Of a DNA stretch of 64,000 nucleotides, positions 48,036 through 54,698 are shown piece by piece. This DNA is from Dokdonella sp. Its GTDB lineage: Bacteria > Pseudomonadota > Gammaproteobacteria > Xanthomonadales > Rhodanobacteraceae. Made by a program: the position numbers and the translations under genes. Under the pieces are notes generated by a model. That model saw nothing but the letters and a program-made list of their open reading frames with translations, made no database searches and was not told where the DNA came from. The stretch is taken from positions 159,254 to 223,253 of the forward strand of contig JALOBC010000001.1 of assembly GCA_023228465.1 (NCBI GenBank), read 5' to 3'. Within the stretch, counting starts at the first letter, position 1; each line of letters opens with the position of its first letter.

Positions 48036-48836
48036 ATGGACGACATGCCGACCGTGCCGCGCAAGCCGCCGCGCGGGATCTACCTGCTGCCGAACCTGTT
48101 CACGACCGGCGCGATGTTCGCCGGCTTCTATGCCATCGTGGCCGGGATCGGCGGGCGCTACACCGAAGCGGCCATCGCCGTATTCGTGGCGGCCATCCTG
48201 GATGGTCTGGATGGCCGCGTTGCGCGCCTGACCAACACGCAGAGCGAGTTCGGTGTGCAGTACGATTCGCTTTCCGACCTGGTCAGCTTCGGCCTCGCCC
48301 CGGCGCTGGTGCTCTACACCTGGTCGTTGTCGGCGCTCAAGGCCTACGGTTCCGGCTGGGGCAAGATCGGCTGGATGGCGGCCTTCGTCTACGCAGCCTG
48401 CGCGGCCCTGCGGCTGGCGCGCTTCAATACCCAGGTCGGCGTGATCGACAAGCGCTACTTCCAGGGCCTGGCCAGTCCCGCTGCGGCGGCGCTGTGCATG
48501 TCCTTCGTATGGACCGTCGAGGACGGCGGCCTGTTCGGCCTGCGCGCCGACAACCTCGATTTCGTCACGCCGATCGTGGCGGTGGTGACCGGCCTGCTGA
48601 TGGTCAGCCGCGTGCGCTACTTCAGTTTCAAGGCCTGGCCGCGCTCCGACCGCGTGCCGTTCTTCTGGATTCCGGCCGCGATGCTGGTGCTGGTGGCGCT
48701 GGCGATCGATCCGCCGCGCGTGCTGTTTGCCAGCACTGCGCTCTACCTTGCCTCCGGGCCGGTCATGACCCTGTGGGGCCTGCGCCGCACACGCGGCCAG
48801 CGCGCCTTGCGGGGGAGCGGCAAGGCACGCGAGTGA
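48036..48836 (+). CDS. pssA: CDP-diacylglycerol-serine O-phosphatidyltransferase
   Basis: PssA makes phosphatidylserine, the precursor of phosphatidylethanolamine. The 266-residue membrane protein has the CDP-alcohol phosphotransferase signature spread over DGLDGRVARLTNTQSEFGVQ and YDSLSD, with YLLPNLFTTGAMFAGF before it and six to eight helices. This is the integral-membrane (Bacillus-type) enzyme and not the E. coli peripheral one. The stop overlaps the GTG of the next gene (GTGA), which couples lipid synthesis to the regulatory and lipid-transport genes downstream. GGAGG lies unusually far (14 bases) from the ATG. Confidence 0.93.
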   Translation: MDDMPTVPRKPPRGIYLLPNLFTTGAMFAGFYAIVAGIGGRYTEAAIAVFVAAILDGLDGRVARLTNTQSEFGVQYDSLSDLVSFGLAPALVLYTWSLSALKAYGSGWGKIGWMAAFVYAACAALRLARFNTQVGVIDKRYFQGLASPAAAALCMSFVWTVEDGGLFGLRADNLDFVTPIVAVVTGLLMVSRVRYFSFKAWPRSDRVPFFWIPAAMLVLVALAIDPPRVLFASTALYLASGPVMTLWGLRRTRGQRALRGSGKARE

Positions 48837-50536
48837 ACGCGACGCCCGCCAGCCCGATGCTCCACCACGGCGTCGGCACGCTGGCCTTCCTGGCCGAGCT
48901 GTCGCAGGCGCTGGCAGTGTCGCTCGACCTGGAGACCACGCTGGCCGAAACGGTCGATCGCGTGCTCGGGTTCATGCAGGCGGAAGCGGCCTCGTTGTTC
49001 CTGATCGAGACCGATGGCAGCAGGTCCGTGCTCCAGTGCCACATCTGCGCCGGGCCGATCGACGTGCGCGGCCTGCGCCTGGCGCTCGGCCAGGGTGTGG
49101 TCGGACGGGCGGTGGCCGAAAATGCGATCCAGCTCGTTACCGATGCCGCGCACGACCCACGGGTCTGGCGGGCCGCCGACGAGACCCATGCATTCGACAC
49201 ACGCAGTCTGGTCTGCGCGCCGCTGGCAACCGCGGCGGGGCCGATCGGCGCGCTGGAGATCATCAACCGCCGCGATGGCCGCCCATTCACGGCCGCCGAC
49301 GCCGAACTGCTCGGCGTGATCGCGGCGCCTGCCGCACTGGCCATCAACAACGCGCGCATGGCGCGTGATCTCGTCCAGCAGCAGCGGCTCAAGCGCGAGT
49401 TCGACCTGGCGCGTCGCCTGCAGCGCTCGCTGTTGCCGCGCCGGCGCCGCGACGGCTTTCCCATCGTGGCGGTGAACCGGCCGGCGCACGAGGTGTCGGG
49501 CGATTTCTACGATTACTTCGACCTTCCTGATGGCCGCATCGGCTTCGTGGTCGGCGATGTATCAGGCAAGGGCATGGATGCGGCCCTGCTGATGGTGCGC
49601 GCGGCGAGTCTGCTGCGCTGGCTCGGCATGGAGAGCCCCGCGCCCGCGGACTGGCTGGCGCGCGCCAACCGGGAGTTGTGCCTGACCGCCCAGGATGGCC
49701 GCTTCGTGTGTGCCCTGGTGGGTTGCTGCGATGCCGACGCGACCCGCGTGCGGTTTGCCGGTGCCGGCTTTCCACCCGTGCTGGTGTGGCGCGATGGCAC
49801 GTTCACGGAGTATGCGGCCGGTGGGCCGCCGCTCGGCATCGCCGCGGACATGACCTTCGCGGAAATGGACATCGCACTCGACCAGGGCACCCTGTACGCC
49901 TACTCGGACGGTGCCACCGACGTGCGCGCAGCCGATGGCAGGCCGATCGGTACCGCGGGTATCCGCGAACTGATTGCCCGTCACGCGGCGGCGGCACCCG
50001 AGGCGCGTCTGCGTGCCCTGCTGGCCGAGTTGCGCCACATGCGCCTGGTGGACGACACCACCCTGCTGACCATCGAGGCGGCGCATGGCGGGCAGCCGGA
50101 ACGGGTGCTGGAGCGTCGCATCCGCGCCGCGCCGGAGGAATTGCGCGGTCTGCGCGTGGCCCTGCGTGGCGCGCTCGACGGCCTGGGCGTGGAGCCCGAG
50201 CTGCGCGATCGCCTGGTGCTGGCCATCGACGAGGCCTGTGCCAACATCATCCGTCACGGCTACGGGCCGGACGGGGATGGTCACATCGAATTGCGACTCA
50301 CGCGCGAGGGCAACCTGCTCAGCTTCGAGCTGTGTGACCAGGCACCGTGTGCCGACCCGCAGCGACTGCGTCCGCGGCCGCTTGGCGAGTGTCGCAGTGG
50401 TGGCTTCGGGCTGGCGTTGATCGACGCGGTCATGGACGATTGGCAGCTCGAACCCGCGCCTGGCGGGTGTGGCAACCGCCTCACCCTGCGCAAGCGCATT
50501 GCCTGCATCGACGACGAGGACAGCGACGGCTCATGA
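48833..50536 (+). CDS. GAF-PP2C phosphatase-HATPase kinase partner-switching protein
   Basis: The 567-residue protein fuses the opposing enzymes of a partner-switching system. A GAF sensor domain spans about 25-165. A SpoIIE/RsbU-type PP2C phosphatase spans about 190-385, with metal-binding Asp224 in SGDFYDYF, Asp242 in GDVSGKGMDAA and Asp359 in YSDGATDV. An RsbW-type HATPase spans about 400-560, with the N-box EACAN at 467-471 and a G-box RSGGFGLALID. It should phosphorylate and dephosphorylate a STAS protein, and one is encoded immediately downstream with a four-base overlap. The GTG start overlaps the pssA stop, with AAGG upstream. Confidence 0.9.
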   Translation: MNATPASPMLHHGVGTLAFLAELSQALAVSLDLETTLAETVDRVLGFMQAEAASLFLIETDGSRSVLQCHICAGPIDVRGLRLALGQGVVGRAVAENAIQLVTDAAHDPRVWRAADETHAFDTRSLVCAPLATAAGPIGALEIINRRDGRPFTAADAELLGVIAAPAALAINNARMARDLVQQQRLKREFDLARRLQRSLLPRRRRDGFPIVAVNRPAHEVSGDFYDYFDLPDGRIGFVVGDVSGKGMDAALLMVRAASLLRWLGMESPAPADWLARANRELCLTAQDGRFVCALVGCCDADATRVRFAGAGFPPVLVWRDGTFTEYAAGGPPLGIAADMTFAEMDIALDQGTLYAYSDGATDVRAADGRPIGTAGIRELIARHAAAAPEARLRALLAELRHMRLVDDTTLLTIEAAHGGQPERVLERRIRAAPEELRGLRVALRGALDGLGVEPELRDRLVLAIDEACANIIRHGYGPDGDGHIELRLTREGNLLSFELCDQAPCADPQRLRPRPLGECRSGGFGLALIDAVMDDWQLEPAPGGCGNRLTLRKRIACIDDEDSDGS

Positions 50537-50877
50537 CGAATCATGCCAACACGGTTGAAACCGAGCAGTGTGCCGGACACGTCCTGGTGCGGCTCGGCGG
50601 CGAGGTGGATCTGTCCTGGTCGCAGGATGTACGTCGCGCGGTGCTGGCGGCGTTGCAGGGTGGATTGCCGGTGGGCGTGGACCTTGCGGCGGTCGATTAC
50701 ATCGATTCCTCGGGTATCGCGGCGCTGGTGGAGGGCTTGCAGGGCGCGCGCTCGCGTGGCGTCGCCTTCGCGCTGATCGCCGTCAGTGCGCAGGTCCGTG
50801 CGGTACTGGAGCTGGCCCGGCTGGACCGGGTGTTCACGCTGGCGGCCACCACGGATGAGGCGTTTGCCGGCCCGTGA
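50533..50877 (+). CDS. STAS-domain protein (anti-sigma factor antagonist / MlaB-like)
   Basis: The 114-residue protein is one STAS domain of SpoIIAA/RsbV type: VRLGGEVDLSWSQDVRR, then VDYIDSSGIAALVEGL with the likely phosphorylation site Ser59, and VRAVLELARLDRVF. It is the expected substrate of the kinase/phosphatase protein encoded just before it. The stop also overlaps the start of mlaE (GTGA). In E. coli the STAS protein MlaB is a subunit of the Mla lipid transporter, and its Thr52 aligns with this Ser. The protein may therefore regulate the transporter and not a sigma factor; that is inference. Confidence 0.88.
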   Translation: MTNHANTVETEQCAGHVLVRLGGEVDLSWSQDVRRAVLAALQGGLPVGVDLAAVDYIDSSGIAALVEGLQGARSRGVAFALIAVSAQVRAVLELARLDRVFTLAATTDEAFAGP

Positions 50878-51671
50878 ACGTGCTGCTGCGCGCGCTCACG
50901 AACGTCGGGCGAGCCACGTTTGCGGCATTTTCCGGCGTGGGCCATGCCGCGGTGCTGCTGTTCGACGCCCTGCGCTTTGCCCTGCTTGGCTGGCGCGTCG
51001 GCCAGCCCCTGCGGCTGGCGCCGGTCGCGCAGCAACTGCGCGAGATCGGCGTGGACGCGCTGCCCATCGTGGTCCTGCTCGGCTTCACCGTCGGCCTCAT
51101 GCTCGGCATCCAGTTCATCGCCTCGCTCTCGGAGTTCGGTGCCCAGTCGCAGGTGATCGTGGCGGTGGCAAAGTCGGTCACGCGTGAATTCGGCGCGCTC
51201 ATCACCGCCATCCTCGTGGCCGGCCGCTCGGGCTCCGCGCTGGCGGCGCGGATCGGTTCGATGAAGGTTTCCCAGGAACTCGACGCGCTCAGCGTGATCG
51301 GCATCGAGCCGGTGCGCTACCTGGTGACCCCGGCGCTGCTGGCCATGCTGGTGATGCTGCCCGCCCTGACCATCCTCGCCAGCGCCGCGGCGCTGGTCGG
51401 CGCGGCGCTGTACAGCGCACCGGCGCTGGACATCACGCCGACCGCCTATCTCCTGCATACCATGAACCTGCTGGATGCCGGTGACCTCTGGCAGGGCCTC
51501 TCCAAGAGTTTCGTGTTTGCCCTGCTCATTACCCTGATCGGCGTCAGCACGGGCTTCTCGGTCAGCGGCGGCGCCGAGGGCGTGGGGCGCGCCACCACCC
51601 GTGCGGTCGTGCTGTCGATTTCCTGGATCATCGTGGTGGACATGGTGTTTTCGTTCTTCGTCAACCGGTAG
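50874..51671 (+). CDS. mlaE: MlaE-family lipid ABC transporter permease
   Basis: MlaE is the membrane subunit of the MCE lipid transporter that keeps outer-membrane lipid asymmetry. The 265-residue protein has the family signature LPIVVLLGFTVGLMLGIQ, then TREFGALITAILVAGRSGSA, ARIGSMKVSQELDALSVIGI and GGAEGVGRATTRAVV. The GTG start overlaps the STAS gene by four bases. The next gene, mlaF, begins 95 bases later. This order (STAS-E-F-D-lipoprotein) differs from the E. coli order F-E-D-C-B. Confidence 0.95.
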   Translation: MNVLLRALTNVGRATFAAFSGVGHAAVLLFDALRFALLGWRVGQPLRLAPVAQQLREIGVDALPIVVLLGFTVGLMLGIQFIASLSEFGAQSQVIVAVAKSVTREFGALITAILVAGRSGSALAARIGSMKVSQELDALSVIGIEPVRYLVTPALLAMLVMLPALTILASAAALVGAALYSAPALDITPTAYLLHTMNLLDAGDLWQGLSKSFVFALLITLIGVSTGFSVSGGAEGVGRATTRAVVLSISWIIVVDMVFSFFVNR

Positions 51672-51709
51672 GGCCGAAGGCCGCGGACCTGCGCCGGGAG
51701 CCGCGGCGC

Positions 51710-51738
51710 TTTGCGCCCGTGCCGGCGGCGGCTATGCT
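51710..51738 (+). promoter_or_regulatory. Possible internal promoter before mlaF
   Basis: TTTGCG and TATGCT are 17 bases apart in the only sizeable gap of the lipid-transport cluster. The -35 match is poor. Confidence 0.3.
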
Positions 51739-51766
51739 CTAGCGATTCCCCGCAGCCTTGATCCCC

Positions 51767-52630
51767 ATGCCTTCGCATCCCCGCGATGGGCCCGCCCTGC
51801 AGCCTCCGGGGCTCGGGCCCGAGCCCCCGGTGGCCTCAGCCCAGGCGCTGATCGACGTGCACCAGCTGCAGGCCTGGTATGGCCGCCGCCGGGTGCTGCA
51901 CGGGATCGACTTTCGCGTCGCTGCAGGCGAAATCCGCGTCATCATGGGCGGCTCGGGTTCGGGCAAGTCGACCCTGCTGCGCCACCTGATCGGCCTGCAG
52001 CGCCCGGCCAGCGGCACGGTGAAGCTGTTCGGCACGGATCTGGGCACGGCCAGCGAACGCGAACTGCTGGCCGTGCGCAAGCGCATCGGCGTGTCCTTCC
52101 AGGGCGGCGCACTGCTGACCTCGCTGTCGGTCGGCGAGAACGTCGCCCTGCCGCTGCGCGAGCACACGCGACTGGATGAATCGACCATCCGCATCATGAG
52201 CCGGCTCAAGCTGGAGGTGGTCAACCTCGGCGGCTTCCAGGACCTGATGCCCGGCCAGCTTTCCGGCGGCATGGTCAAGCGGGCGGCGCTGGCGCGCGCC
52301 ATCGTCATGGATCCGCGCCTGCTGTTCTTCGACGAGCCGTCGGCCGGCCTGGATCCGGTCGTTGCCGCCGAGCTCGACGAACTCATCCTGCGCCTGCGCG
52401 ATGCCCTGCGCATGACCATCGTGGTGGTCACCCACGAACTGGAAAGCGCATTCAAGATCGCCGATACCATCACCGTGCTCGACCAGGGCGAGATCCTCAT
52501 GACCGGTGCGGTCGAGGCGGTGCGCGCCGCACCCAATACGCGCATCCAGGATCTGCTCAACCGGCGCCCGCGCGAGGTGCAGGTCGATGCGGAAACCTAC
52601 CTCAGGCGCCTGACCGAGGAGGAAGGCTGA
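51767..52630 (+). CDS. mlaF: MlaF-family lipid ABC transporter ATP-binding protein
   Basis: The 287-residue ATPase powers the MlaE permease. It has Walker A GGSGSGKSTLLRHLIG, a Q-loop SFQGGALLTSLSVGENVALP, the signature LSGGMVKRAALARAIV, Walker B LLFFDEPSAGLDP and an H-loop VVVTHELESA. The SGGM signature and FQGGALL are typical of MlaF. The N-terminus has an extra proline-rich segment of about 25 residues before LIDVHQLQAWYGRR, so the true start may be further in. A TTG nine bases upstream is less likely. Confidence 0.95.
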   Translation: MPSHPRDGPALQPPGLGPEPPVASAQALIDVHQLQAWYGRRRVLHGIDFRVAAGEIRVIMGGSGSGKSTLLRHLIGLQRPASGTVKLFGTDLGTASERELLAVRKRIGVSFQGGALLTSLSVGENVALPLREHTRLDESTIRIMSRLKLEVVNLGGFQDLMPGQLSGGMVKRAALARAIVMDPRLLFFDEPSAGLDPVVAAELDELILRLRDALRMTIVVVTHELESAFKIADTITVLDQGEILMTGAVEAVRAAPNTRIQDLLNRRPREVQVDAETYLRRLTEEEG

Positions 52631-52650
52631 TAATGTGGCGCTACCGCAAC

Positions 52651-52656
52651 AGGAGG
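52651..52656 (+). promoter_or_regulatory. Ribosome binding site that decides a TTG start for mlaD
   Basis: A full-consensus AGGAGG lies five bases before the in-frame TTG at 52662. The alternative GTG at 52635 has no such site. Confidence 0.6.
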
Positions 52657-52661
52657 CACCC

Positions 52662-53585
52662 TTGAGACGCGACACGCTCAACTACGCCCTGGTCGGCGCG
52701 GTCGTCGTGGCGGCGGCCGTCCTGCTGCTGCTCGCGCTGGCGCTGATCGGCGGGCGCAGCGTTGCCAGCGCCGACTACACGGTGCGCTATCGCAACGTGA
52801 CCGGCCTGCGCGCGGGTGCGCCAGTGTTCTACGAGGGCTACCGCATCGGCGCCGTGGCGGACGTCACGCCCGAACGCGACGCGGCAGGCACGCGCTATCG
52901 GGTGACCCTGGCCGTGCGCCGCGACTGGCCCATTCCGCGCGACAGCCGGGCCCGCCTGCAGTCCAGCGGCCTGCTCGCCGACGTGTCGATCGGCATCCAC
53001 GAGGGCGCCAGCCACCAGATGCTCAAGCCGGGCGGCGAGATCGCGGGCGTGGAAGGCGGCAACATGTTCGCCGCCATGAACGACCTGGCGCTGGAACTGG
53101 GGGAACTCACGCGCACGCGCATTGCGCCGCTGATCGAAGTCCTCACCCGGCGCACCGATTCCATCGGCGCAGCGCTCGATGCGCATGCGCCGGAGCTGCT
53201 GAGCACTGCGCAGGCGCTGCTGGACCGTTTGAACCGTGCCGGCGATGCACTCAACGATGTGCTCAATCCGGCCAACCGCGCCGCCCTTGCCGGCACCTTG
53301 CGGGAATCGCAGGAGGGCCTGGCGGAGTTGCGCGCCACGCGCGCCAACCTCGACCGCGCACTCGGCGAGATCACGGGCATCGCGGCGGAGAACCGCGCCG
53401 ACGTGCGCCGCGCGGTGCGTGACCTGACCGGGGTGCTGGATACCCTGTCCAGCCGCGTGGACGTCATCATCCATCATCTCGAGGCATCCAGTCGCAACCT
53501 GGACCAGTTCAGCCGCGAGATCCGCCGTCGGCCGAACCGCTTGCTGCTGTCGCCCGAAGCCGACCCGCGCGAGGACCTCGAATGA
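52662..53585 (+). CDS. mlaD: MlaD-family MCE lipid-binding protein
   Basis: The 307-residue protein has one N-terminal membrane helix (ALVGAVVVAAAVLLLLALAL), then a single MCE domain (about 35-120, with YRNVTGLRAGAPVFYEGYRI and SSGLLADVSIGI), and a long helical C-terminal region (about 150-290) that probably forms a coiled-coil extension. MCE proteins form hexameric rings that carry lipids across the periplasm. The TTG start follows a perfect AGGAGG. The stop overlaps the start of the lipoprotein gene (ATGA). No mlaC is present. Confidence 0.93.
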   Translation: MRRDTLNYALVGAVVVAAAVLLLLALALIGGRSVASADYTVRYRNVTGLRAGAPVFYEGYRIGAVADVTPERDAAGTRYRVTLAVRRDWPIPRDSRARLQSSGLLADVSIGIHEGASHQMLKPGGEIAGVEGGNMFAAMNDLALELGELTRTRIAPLIEVLTRRTDSIGAALDAHAPELLSTAQALLDRLNRAGDALNDVLNPANRAALAGTLRESQEGLAELRATRANLDRALGEITGIAAENRADVRRAVRDLTGVLDTLSSRVDVIIHHLEASSRNLDQFSREIRRRPNRLLLSPEADPREDLE

Positions 53586-54199
53586 AGCCAGGCCGCCTGC
53601 CGATCCTGCTCGCCGCGTTGCTGCTGGCTGCCTGTGGCGGCGTGCCGGCGGTGCCGGACTACACCTGGTACCGGCTGCCACCGGCGCCGGAAATCGCGCC
53701 GGCGGGCGAAGTTTTCGCTTTGCCCGTGGTCGTGGGCAGTTTCGCCGCCGATGGCCTGTACGCCGACCAGGCGCTGATCCATGCGCTCGATGCTTCCGGC
53801 CAGCGTCTGCGCCAGTACCACTACCAGCTCTGGGTCGACCCGCCGGGTCGCATGCTGCAACGGCGCCTCATCGCGCGCCTGCGCGACGCGGCACTGGCGC
53901 CCCTGGTCACCGACGAGCTGGCCGCCGGCGCGCCGGCATTGCGCATCCGTGGGGTGATCCTGCGCATGGAGCGCGTGCCGGACGGGCAGGGCGGCACGCT
54001 CGCCGTGGTGGCCCTGAAGCTGCGCGTGGATGCCGCCGACCGGCGCCCGCTGGTCGATCAGGTCTATCGCGCCGAGGTGCGCGCCACGGACGGCAGCCTT
54101 GGCGCCACGGTGGCCGCCATGGGCACGGCGATCGACGAGCTCTTCGCGCGCTTCCAGGCGGATCTCGTGCGCCACGCGGACCAGGCCGATGCGCCCTGA
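53582..54199 (+). CDS. ABC-type transport auxiliary lipoprotein (PqiC-like)
   Basis: The 205-residue product has a lipoprotein signal with lipobox LLAAC at about residues 14-18 and a PqiC/DUF330-like domain: DYTWYRLPPAP, LPVVVGSFAADGLYADQALI, and YHYQLWVDPPGRMLQRRL. In MCE systems such as Pqi, this lipoprotein sits in the outer membrane as the partner of the MCE protein. It takes the place that MlaC or MlaA would have in the E. coli system. It overlaps mlaD by four bases and holD by eleven. Confidence 0.87.
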   Translation: MKPGRLPILLAALLLAACGGVPAVPDYTWYRLPPAPEIAPAGEVFALPVVVGSFAADGLYADQALIHALDASGQRLRQYHYQLWVDPPGRMLQRRLIARLRDAALAPLVTDELAAGAPALRIRGVILRMERVPDGQGGTLAVVALKLRVDAADRRPLVDQVYRAEVRATDGSLGATVAAMGTAIDELFARFQADLVRHADQADAP

Positions 54200-54698
54200 A
54201 GCCAGGCTTCGCCGTCTCGCTGAAATGGGCATCGAGGTCTGCGTGCCGCGCGCGCCGCTCGAGCCCGCAGCGGCCGGCGATCCGGCCGACGTCGCGCCGC
54301 AGGCGATCGGAGCCGGGGCGCTGGTGGCGCTGTTTGCCGATCCGCAGGTTGCGCTGGCGACGGGGCTCGTCGCCGATCTGGTGCGCGCGCTCAGGTTCGC
54401 CGGCATCCGCTGCGTGGCCGATTCCGGTCAGGCGCCGGCCGCGCTTGCCGTCGCTGCGGGCGCCATCATGCTCGGCCCGGCGGCGGCGCGGCGCGCCGGC
54501 GCCCTGCTGCCGGCGCAGCGCCAGACCGAACTCGCCTGGATCGTCACCGCGGAGCTCACGCAGTTGCGCGGCGACGTGCCGGCGCGGCGCGCGCTGTGGA
54601 GCGAAATCAGGCGCCTCGCCCAGCGCCTGGCCACGCCCGCCGGGCACGCGCCGGTGTCCGGCGGCGCTTGCGTGGCAACCGCGCAACGGCGAGCATAA
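54189..54698 (+). CDS. holD: Probable DNA polymerase III psi subunit
   Basis: Psi bridges the clamp loader and chi, linking the polymerase to SSB. The 169-residue product is not obvious by motif but aligns with E. coli HolD. LAEMGIEVCVPRAP matches its opening, LVADLVRALRFAGI matches its LVSDVLRALTVSP, and LRGDVPARRALWSEIRRL matches LRANPTARAALWQQI at the end. It lies directly before rimI, as holD does in E. coli. It is about 30 residues longer than E. coli psi (137). The ATG is inside the lipoprotein gene end. Confidence 0.62.
   Translation: MRPEARLRRLAEMGIEVCVPRAPLEPAAAGDPADVAPQAIGAGALVALFADPQVALATGLVADLVRALRFAGIRCVADSGQAPAALAVAAGAIMLGPAAARRAGALLPAQRQTELAWIVTAELTQLRGDVPARRALWSEIRRLAQRLATPAGHAPVSGGACVATAQRRA

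Follow-up and report, generated by a model that had tools for sequence, protein, structure and literature searches.

A partner-switching module encoded with an MCE-type lipid transporter suggests phosphorylation control of the ATPase MlaF

Genes and proteins at the locus

The subject of this study is a 64,000-nucleotide stretch of a Dokdonella sp. genome (GenBank assembly GCA_023228465.1, contig JALOBC010000001.1, positions 159,254 to 223,253; hereafter the window), in which genes for an RsbU/RsbW-like kinase/phosphatase and a small STAS protein lie in one operon with a lipid ATP-binding cassette (ABC) transporter of the MCE/Mla type. A first-pass annotation of the window had described this gene order, the overlaps between the genes and the motifs of their products, and had proposed partner switching applied to a lipid transporter. 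All of the described features are present. A pssA-like gene precedes the genes of the switch enzyme, STAS and MlaE, and genes for MlaF, an MCE protein and a lipoprotein come after them:

48036..48836, + strand: pssA-like CDP-alcohol phosphatidyltransferase of phospholipid synthesis (Pfam PF01066 CDP-OH_P_transf, 3.5e-19)
48833..50536, + strand: RsbU/RsbW-like switch enzyme, GAF-SpoIIE/PP2C-HATPase_c_2 in one chain (Pfam); GTG start
50533..50877, + strand: RsbV-like STAS switch protein of 114 amino acids; ATG start; Pfam STAS, 3.1e-18 (translation scanned from 50527)
50707..50709, + strand: codon of Ser59, the first Ser of the DSSG motif and presumed phosphorylation site
50874..51671, + strand: MlaE-family permease; GTG start; PF02405, 3.3e-69
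51767..52630, + strand: MlaF-type ABC ATPase with a distinctive C-terminal extension; PF00005
52635..53585, + strand: MCE (MlaD-domain) protein; PF02470, 5.7e-14; start codon uncertain
53582..54199, + strand: ABC_trans_aux lipoprotein; PF03886, 5.6e-13

The three junctions from the pssA-like gene through the switch enzyme and STAS to MlaE are 4-base start/stop overlaps (at 48833, 50533 and 50874). The MlaE and MlaF genes are spaced by 95 bases, and a 4-base overlap takes the place of this gap in three loci of the same genus (L046, L049 and L054; in our labels, G denotes genomes, L loci and f families). The presence of an MlaE permease, an MlaF-like ATPase and an MCE protein in a single operon (PF02405, PF00005 and PF02470) identifies an MCE/MlaE lipid ABC transporter. 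It is not the canonical Mla system, as a Pfam scan of nine genes, beginning with the pssA-like gene and ending with a rimI-like one, found no MlaC, and the window MlaF and MlaD both fall below their NCBIfam equivalog cut-offs (200.6 versus 441 and 68.2 versus 135, respectively). The remaining genes supply the parts of an RsbUVW-type module, namely a PP2C phosphatase with its Asp residues, an HATPase_c_2 kinase and a STAS protein with the DSSG serine. The usual linked sigma factor is missing: Pfam detected none among the same nine genes, the rest of the genome not having been searched for sigma factors. The locus encodes a partner-switching module and not a His-Asp phosphorelay, and the term phosphorelay used in the first-pass annotation should be dropped.

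The switch enzyme comprises a GAF domain (residues 32-171), a SpoIIE/PP2C phosphatase (232-415; PF07228, 6.4e-39) and an HATPase_c_2 kinase (431-554; PF13581, 6.8e-24), as delimited by Pfam. Across the census of Gammaproteobacteria described below, D224, D242, D359, D407 and D408 of the phosphatase, which we take to be its metal-binding Asp residues, are invariant in 51/51 sequences. The same holds in 58/58 sequences for E467, N471, D502, G524, G526 and N548 of the kinase, the first five of which are presumably residues of the N, G1 and G2 boxes.

Several comparisons place the STAS protein with anti-sigma-factor antagonists. It passes the NCBIfam anti-sigma-antagonist model TIGR00377 (71 versus a cut-off of 53.45) and fails the mlaB equivalog NF033618 (24.3 versus 90). 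A profile search of the PDB returned TM1442 (2e-17) and SpoIIAA (2e-11), with MlaB far behind (5e-3). The AF2 model (pLDDT 93) is closest by Foldseek to RsbV of the RsbV/RsbW complex, with TM scores of 0.82/0.92, compared with 0.59-0.64 by query for MlaB. The profile search, fold match and NCBIfam scores together rule out an MlaB orthologue. The proposal that this protein is the equivalent of MlaB needs correction on this point. The presumed acceptor was said to align with Thr52 of MlaB, and residues 47-94 of STAS do match residues 40-87 of E. coli MlaB over equal lengths, which sets Ser59 over Thr52 if the match is gap-free. Position 59 is Ser in all 28 aligned STAS sequences and in 60/60 census sequences, and the alignment columns likely to form an interface between STAS and MlaF show hardly any variation. 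Overall, the window STAS is a phosphorylatable type, and it takes the place that MlaB or a fused STAS domain occupies in related systems.

The ATPase carries a second feature of interest. Its top six PDB matches include the MlaF chains of P. aeruginosa and E. coli, and members of its family share a conserved tail, RRPRxxxVDAxxYLRRLT, that was not seen in paralogues. Structural work on E. coli describes a C-terminal extension of MlaF that inserts Tyr261, Leu265 and Leu266 into the groove between MlaB and MlaF (PMC7367683). Of 137 distinct family MlaF sequences (some genomes being counted twice through cut copies), 125 have the pattern [YF][LM]xRL within their final 45 residues, compared with 0/28 lower-scoring MlaF paralogues. 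The test is partly circular, as the MlaF profile was built from tailed members; the tail makes up about a tenth of the model. Five of the twelve sequences without the pattern appear to be truncated where the contig or locus ends, and most of the others have near variants such as YIKRLT or YLKELT. Family members and paralogues are separated by a gap in profile score, from 255 to 316 bits. The predicted structure of MlaF was mediocre (pLDDT 73) and was not used.

Conservation and co-occurrence with MlaF

The first-pass annotation had suggested a search for further genomes with this gene order, and the order recurs widely. A search of 81 relatives located the kinase/phosphatase protein, as one gene or as split PP2C and HATPase with at least 41% identity, in 34 genomes, the window genome included, and a window-class MlaE (at least 50% identity, best match of each genome) in exactly the same 34; both are absent from the other 47. 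Of the 34 loci read, 32 retain the order pssA-RsbUW-STAS-MlaE, and a pssA-like gene is the 5′ neighbor of the kinase/phosphatase gene in all 34. The two remaining genomes (G056 and G074) have pssA-RsbUW alone, with STAS-MlaE-MlaF-MCE-lipoprotein clustered on another contig. In three f12 genomes no MlaF follows STAS-MlaE beside RsbUW; in one of these, G059, the operon is split, with STAS-MlaE next to pssA-RsbUW (L061) and MlaF-MCE-lipoprotein-rimI elsewhere (L331, G059:C34). In 8/34 loci, two neighboring genes encode PP2C and HATPase separately. These split genes and unlinked clusters indicate that the fusion is not essential and that the two parts can become unlinked with both retained. Conservation of the 4-base overlaps is partial: they occur between the pssA-like and phosphatase genes in 22/34 loci, between the kinase gene and STAS in 21/32 and between STAS and MlaE in 13/32, as counted by a script that favored overlapping starts where present.

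Wider sampling was carried out by a pattern scan of 84,980 species genomes with tblastn confirmation, using the STAS alignment as query, which yielded 420 relatives. The best 80 were kept, many of which overlap with the 81-relative set. Because the selection patterns contain either the serine of DSSG or the block after it, this set says little about Ser59. MlaE lies 3′ of STAS on the same strand in 80/80 of these, within 250 bases in 79; the exception, L102, has a 674-base spacer with no convincing gene within. An HATPase gene is found at most 400 bases upstream of STAS in 76/80; one locus of the set, L112, begins at a contig edge. Four loci without a linked kinase (L147 from Marinicella, L150, L151 and L154) were considered as rule breakers and rejected as such, as all four genomes encode a 39-40% identical GAF-PP2C-HATPase protein elsewhere. 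In three of them this gene adjoins a pssA-like gene, and in the fourth the contig ends there. Linkage confined to one genus is likewise rejected by the loci of relatives, named genomes and censuses alike, and it extends to Caenispirillum of the Alphaproteobacteria (L155; PP2C-HATPase-STAS-MlaE-MlaF-MCE-lipoprotein, with no pssA-like gene in the stretch read).

To this we add a class census of 369 evenly drawn Gammaproteobacteria genomes, with a STAS profile at 1e-15 and an MlaF profile at 1e-85, the latter threshold excluding paralogues. STAS was detected in 61 genomes and MlaF in 60, of which 57 have both, 4 STAS alone and 3 MlaF alone, with 305 having neither (Fisher 3e-58, a value that ignores descent). 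In the 60 loci read (G768, L337, stands outside the count, as does L289, a further match in G708), HATPase precedes STAS by at most 400 bases in 58, and in 51 a PP2C gene likewise precedes it; as 24 of the 60 were read with ~1.5 kb per side and some are cut by contig ends, PP2C counts are lower bounds. An Mla gene follows within 400 bases downstream of STAS in 53 loci (46 MlaE and 7 MlaF). For 51 of the 57 genomes with both, the distance from STAS to a downstream MlaF is at most 5 kb, with MlaF on the opposite strand in four. Seven census genomes lack an Mla gene after STAS, and four of these (G676, G891, G604 and G737) encode a matching MlaF (393 bits or more) at another site, in operons that contain an MlaE of another family. 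In the class of G088, 18/385 genomes match at 1e-22, with MlaE directly downstream of STAS in 13 of the 18. An evenly drawn phylum census matched 58/398 genomes at 1e-18, and an Mla gene adjoins STAS in 5 of the 30 loci read.

The cassette also appears on transporters of other architectures. All seven genes of HATPase-STAS-MlaF-MlaE-MlaD-MlaC-PP2C at L209 were assigned by Pfam, which places the cassette on an mlaFEDC operon of the canonical kind. Custom models (MlaC not covered) give the same order for L290, and at L291 the contig stops after MCE. The order PP2C-HATPase-STAS-MlaF-MlaE-MCE is found in L280 and L297, and in L239 as far as read. At L271, L274, L277 and L285, MlaF lies on the opposite strand beyond MlaE-MCE, and at L260, L275 and L278 the cassette accompanies MlaF alone. 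MlaE of the first three of these architectures scores ~100-160 bits with the window-type model, versus 310-475 for complete window-type genes, and so belongs to another family. The switch is therefore tied to two MlaE families, with MlaF as the common element.

A proposed switch on MlaF and its alternatives

The linkage, the co-occurrence in trans, the reuse of the cassette on an mlaFEDC operon and the intact catalytic and acceptor residues strongly support the core idea of the first-pass annotation, partner switching on a lipid ABC transporter. We consider it probable that the output of the partner switch is MlaF. The locus would encode an MCE-type lipid transporter whose ATPase is switched by the module. 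Unphosphorylated STAS would dock on MlaF via the helical face used by E. coli MlaB, allowing the MlaFE engine to assemble and run. Phosphorylation of Ser59 by the HATPase kinase would cause STAS to leave MlaF, or STAS would be held in a complex with the kinase. Guided by its sensor domain, which is GAF here, the PP2C phosphatase would strip the phosphate and restore transport. That phosphate means 'off' is inferred, and we hold this sign with less confidence than the switch itself.

Published work on E. coli bears on this scheme. Thr52 of MlaB lies near the center of the MlaF interface, T52E lowers MlaF binding, and MlaF is lost from the complex without MlaB (PMC7367683). Phosphorylation of MlaB was proposed by analogy with SpoIIAA (PMC5016091), and regulation of active MlaB, perhaps by phosphorylation, was posed as a question by the authors of the MlaFB work (PMC7367683). 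Our search of open-licence papers found none that joins partner switching with Mla lipid transport, and the words Mla, ABC transporter and lipid are absent from the available text of a review of STAS-only proteins (PMC8256260).

Several points weigh against a switch on MlaF, in addition to the circularity of the tail test and the neglect of descent in the Fisher value. By sequence, the RsbV-like STAS is not an MlaB orthologue, and its model has an extra C-terminal strand (102-104) and helix (107-111) in place of the minimal STAS fold of E. coli MlaB, which is without the fifth strand and last helix (PMC7367683). Binding of STAS to MlaF and phosphorylation of Ser59 by the operon's kinase are both steps that we infer. 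E. coli MlaB T52A, reported to have no ATPase activity (PMC5016091), keeps its binding (PMC7367683, PMC5016091), a combination that a simple on/off scheme does not explain. There are also discordant genomes. G863, which is 99% complete and has STAS, G801 and G628, whose STAS matches are weak, all lack such an MlaF (best 230-246 bits), as does G365 of the phylum set; G626 and G787 have MlaF with no STAS at 1e-15. Contig ends cut the locus in two of the seven discordant class-census genomes (G768 stops after MlaE and G574 starts inside MlaE), and G863, G626 and G787 are real exceptions as far as the assemblies go. Finally, in the class of G088, STAS is not followed by MlaE in 5 of the 18 matching genomes. 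The phylum census loci without an adjoining Mla gene are L174, L177 and 23 loci of f49, of which L185 has only 48 bases downstream; the kinase-STAS pair of f49 has no Mla gene downstream in 22/22 loci with at least 1 kb of downstream sequence. STAS proteins of this kind thus also serve other outputs. Those of f49 score at most 93 bits, and most Mla-linked STAS reach at least 100.

Within the switch on MlaF, the opposite sign is a sub-case that we find unlikely: phospho-STAS, or STAS freed from the kinase, would inhibit MlaF, so that the kinase activates transport. The sign is not fixed by sequence, and the bound yet inactive T52A protein is compatible with this variant. The weaker binding of T52E and the loss of MlaF in the absence of MlaB, both from the E. 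coli work, favor unphosphorylated STAS as the activator.

A rather less probable alternative is that STAS is a constitutive, MlaB-like structural subunit, with the kinase/phosphatase acting mainly on another target and the operon shared for expression. The invariable position of MlaE after STAS in the best 80 of 420, even where the kinase is unlinked, speaks for such a subunit. The window's own genome bears on this point, since it has three MlaE systems: that of the window (contig C89), one on C37 consisting of MlaF, MlaE, an MCE gene and a separate MlaB-like STAS (DSAT at the site), and one on C9 with STAS fused to MlaE (DTAG), accompanied by MlaF, MCE and lipoprotein genes. In the stretches read around each, only the window system has a kinase/phosphatase match beside it; the paralogous transporters have STAS as MlaB or as an MlaE fusion, with no such match there. 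The first-pass annotation had regarded a separate MlaB-like STAS elsewhere that binds this MlaF as grounds for refutation. An MlaB-like STAS does exist on C37, where it adjoins another MlaF and MlaE; the presence of three STAS proteins by three different transporters makes it a less likely partner of the window MlaF. Against a purely structural subunit, the kinase is kept in six checked genomes where it is unlinked and lies directly upstream of STAS in 58/60 loci, its catalytic residues and the acceptor Ser are invariant, and the kinase-STAS cassette is also present on an mlaFEDC operon.

An ordinary RsbUVW-type switch on a sigma or anti-sigma target, with the lipid transporter as a neighbor or regulated gene, is highly improbable: STAS and the kinase do resemble RsbV and RsbW in sequence and fold, and kinase-STAS pairs without Mla genes exist in f49 and at a few other loci, but no sigma factor gene is among the nine genes scanned, the pair co-occurs with one type of MlaF, in trans too, and STAS stands directly 5′ of MlaF or MlaE in several architectures.

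The proposed switch on MlaF can be compared with known systems on either side. Like MlaFEDB of E. coli, the window system has MlaE, MlaF with a C-terminal extension, an MCE protein and a small cytoplasmic STAS with Ser/Thr at the same site. It differs in its RsbV-like STAS, which fails the mlaB model, in having a lipoprotein gene and no MlaC, and in its linked kinase and phosphatase, the available E. coli accounts naming no MlaB kinase. Transporters with a STAS-MlaE fusion share the order STAS-MlaE in one chain, followed by MlaF, MCE and mostly a lipoprotein gene, and the MlaE paralogue of this type in the window's own genome is 42% identical to the window's. In contrast, their site reads DTAG, DSAG, DSIG or DIAG, with no kinase/PP2C match in the stretches read. 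RsbU-RsbV-RsbW and SpoIIE-SpoIIAA-SpoIIAB share with this locus a PP2C phosphatase, an HATPase kinase, a DSSG STAS, intact residues and variable sensors; the locus differs in having no sigma gene in the segment scanned, a lipid ABC transporter as usual neighbor and a fused phosphatase-kinase. One-protein kinase/phosphatases acting on a STAS are described for SypE/SypA of Vibrio fischeri, where unphosphorylated SypA is the active output, and for PA3346/PA3347 of P. aeruginosa; their outputs, unlike that proposed here, are biofilm and swarming regulation (PMC8256260).

If true, a switch on MlaF would provide a signaling route that controls outer-membrane lipid balance after translation, and the recurrence of the set near a lipid pump in many bacteria suggests that outer-membrane lipid traffic is toggled by phosphorylation. 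Many gammaproteobacterial families and some alphaproteobacteria encode the kinase, phosphatase and exchangeable sensor together in one operon, so the question of MlaB phosphoregulation raised by the MlaFB work (PMC7367683, PMC5016091) becomes testable with purified proteins. Seven census genomes (G799, G858, G840, G642, G677, G766 and G649) have two MlaF proteins of this type, one near STAS and a second in a separate operon, with no STAS of this type beside that operon, which is canonical-type in six of the seven. One kinase/phosphatase pair with an exchangeable sensor could thus set intermembrane lipid traffic in the whole cell. We tentatively extend this to a model, no better than an open bet at present, in which one phospho-STAS is a detachable, rationed subunit that gates a single envelope lipid transporter or several together. 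In Lysobacterales, the switch may be tied to phospholipid synthesis via the overlap with the pssA-like gene.

Sensor domains, neighboring genes and variants

GAF is present in the window enzyme, as the first-pass annotation stated, and the idea that it is the constant sensor is rejected, with HDOD or receiver domains replacing it at other loci. Ten PP2C proteins from such loci carry HDOD (8), GAF (1, with HATPase fused) or a receiver (1); they were hand-picked, mostly low scorers with the GAF-containing model, and the shares are not frequencies. Input domains that swap while the output stays constant are the behavior expected of a signaling module. At one locus recorded twice (L123 = L231 by coordinates), the order is pssA-HATPase-STAS-MlaE with no PP2C gene between, and elsewhere this genome has only distant PP2C matches. 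The window's own genome contains a further SpoIIE/HATPase_c_2-like cluster (G000:C40:124851-128665) with a weak match to the switch enzyme.

Downstream of the ABC_trans_aux lipoprotein, which we take to be PqiC-like by name, lie an open reading frame of 167 amino acids (54193-54698) and then the rimI-like acetyltransferase gene. The open reading frame has no Pfam or NCBIfam match at 0.001, and we presume from its position that it is a HolD-like gene.

A UbiD-like gene, named by eye, follows the HATPase-STAS pair at L187, one of the f49 loci (L179-L201). At L293, L296 and L237 (G676, G863 and G891), kinase-STAS is followed by divergent genes that by eye include an FHA-like protein and, at L293 and L237, a PPM-type phosphatase look-alike. 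Tandem STAS genes lie between HATPase and MlaE at L352, L353 and L357 (G966 and G1232), perhaps one for each partner, kinase and MlaF.

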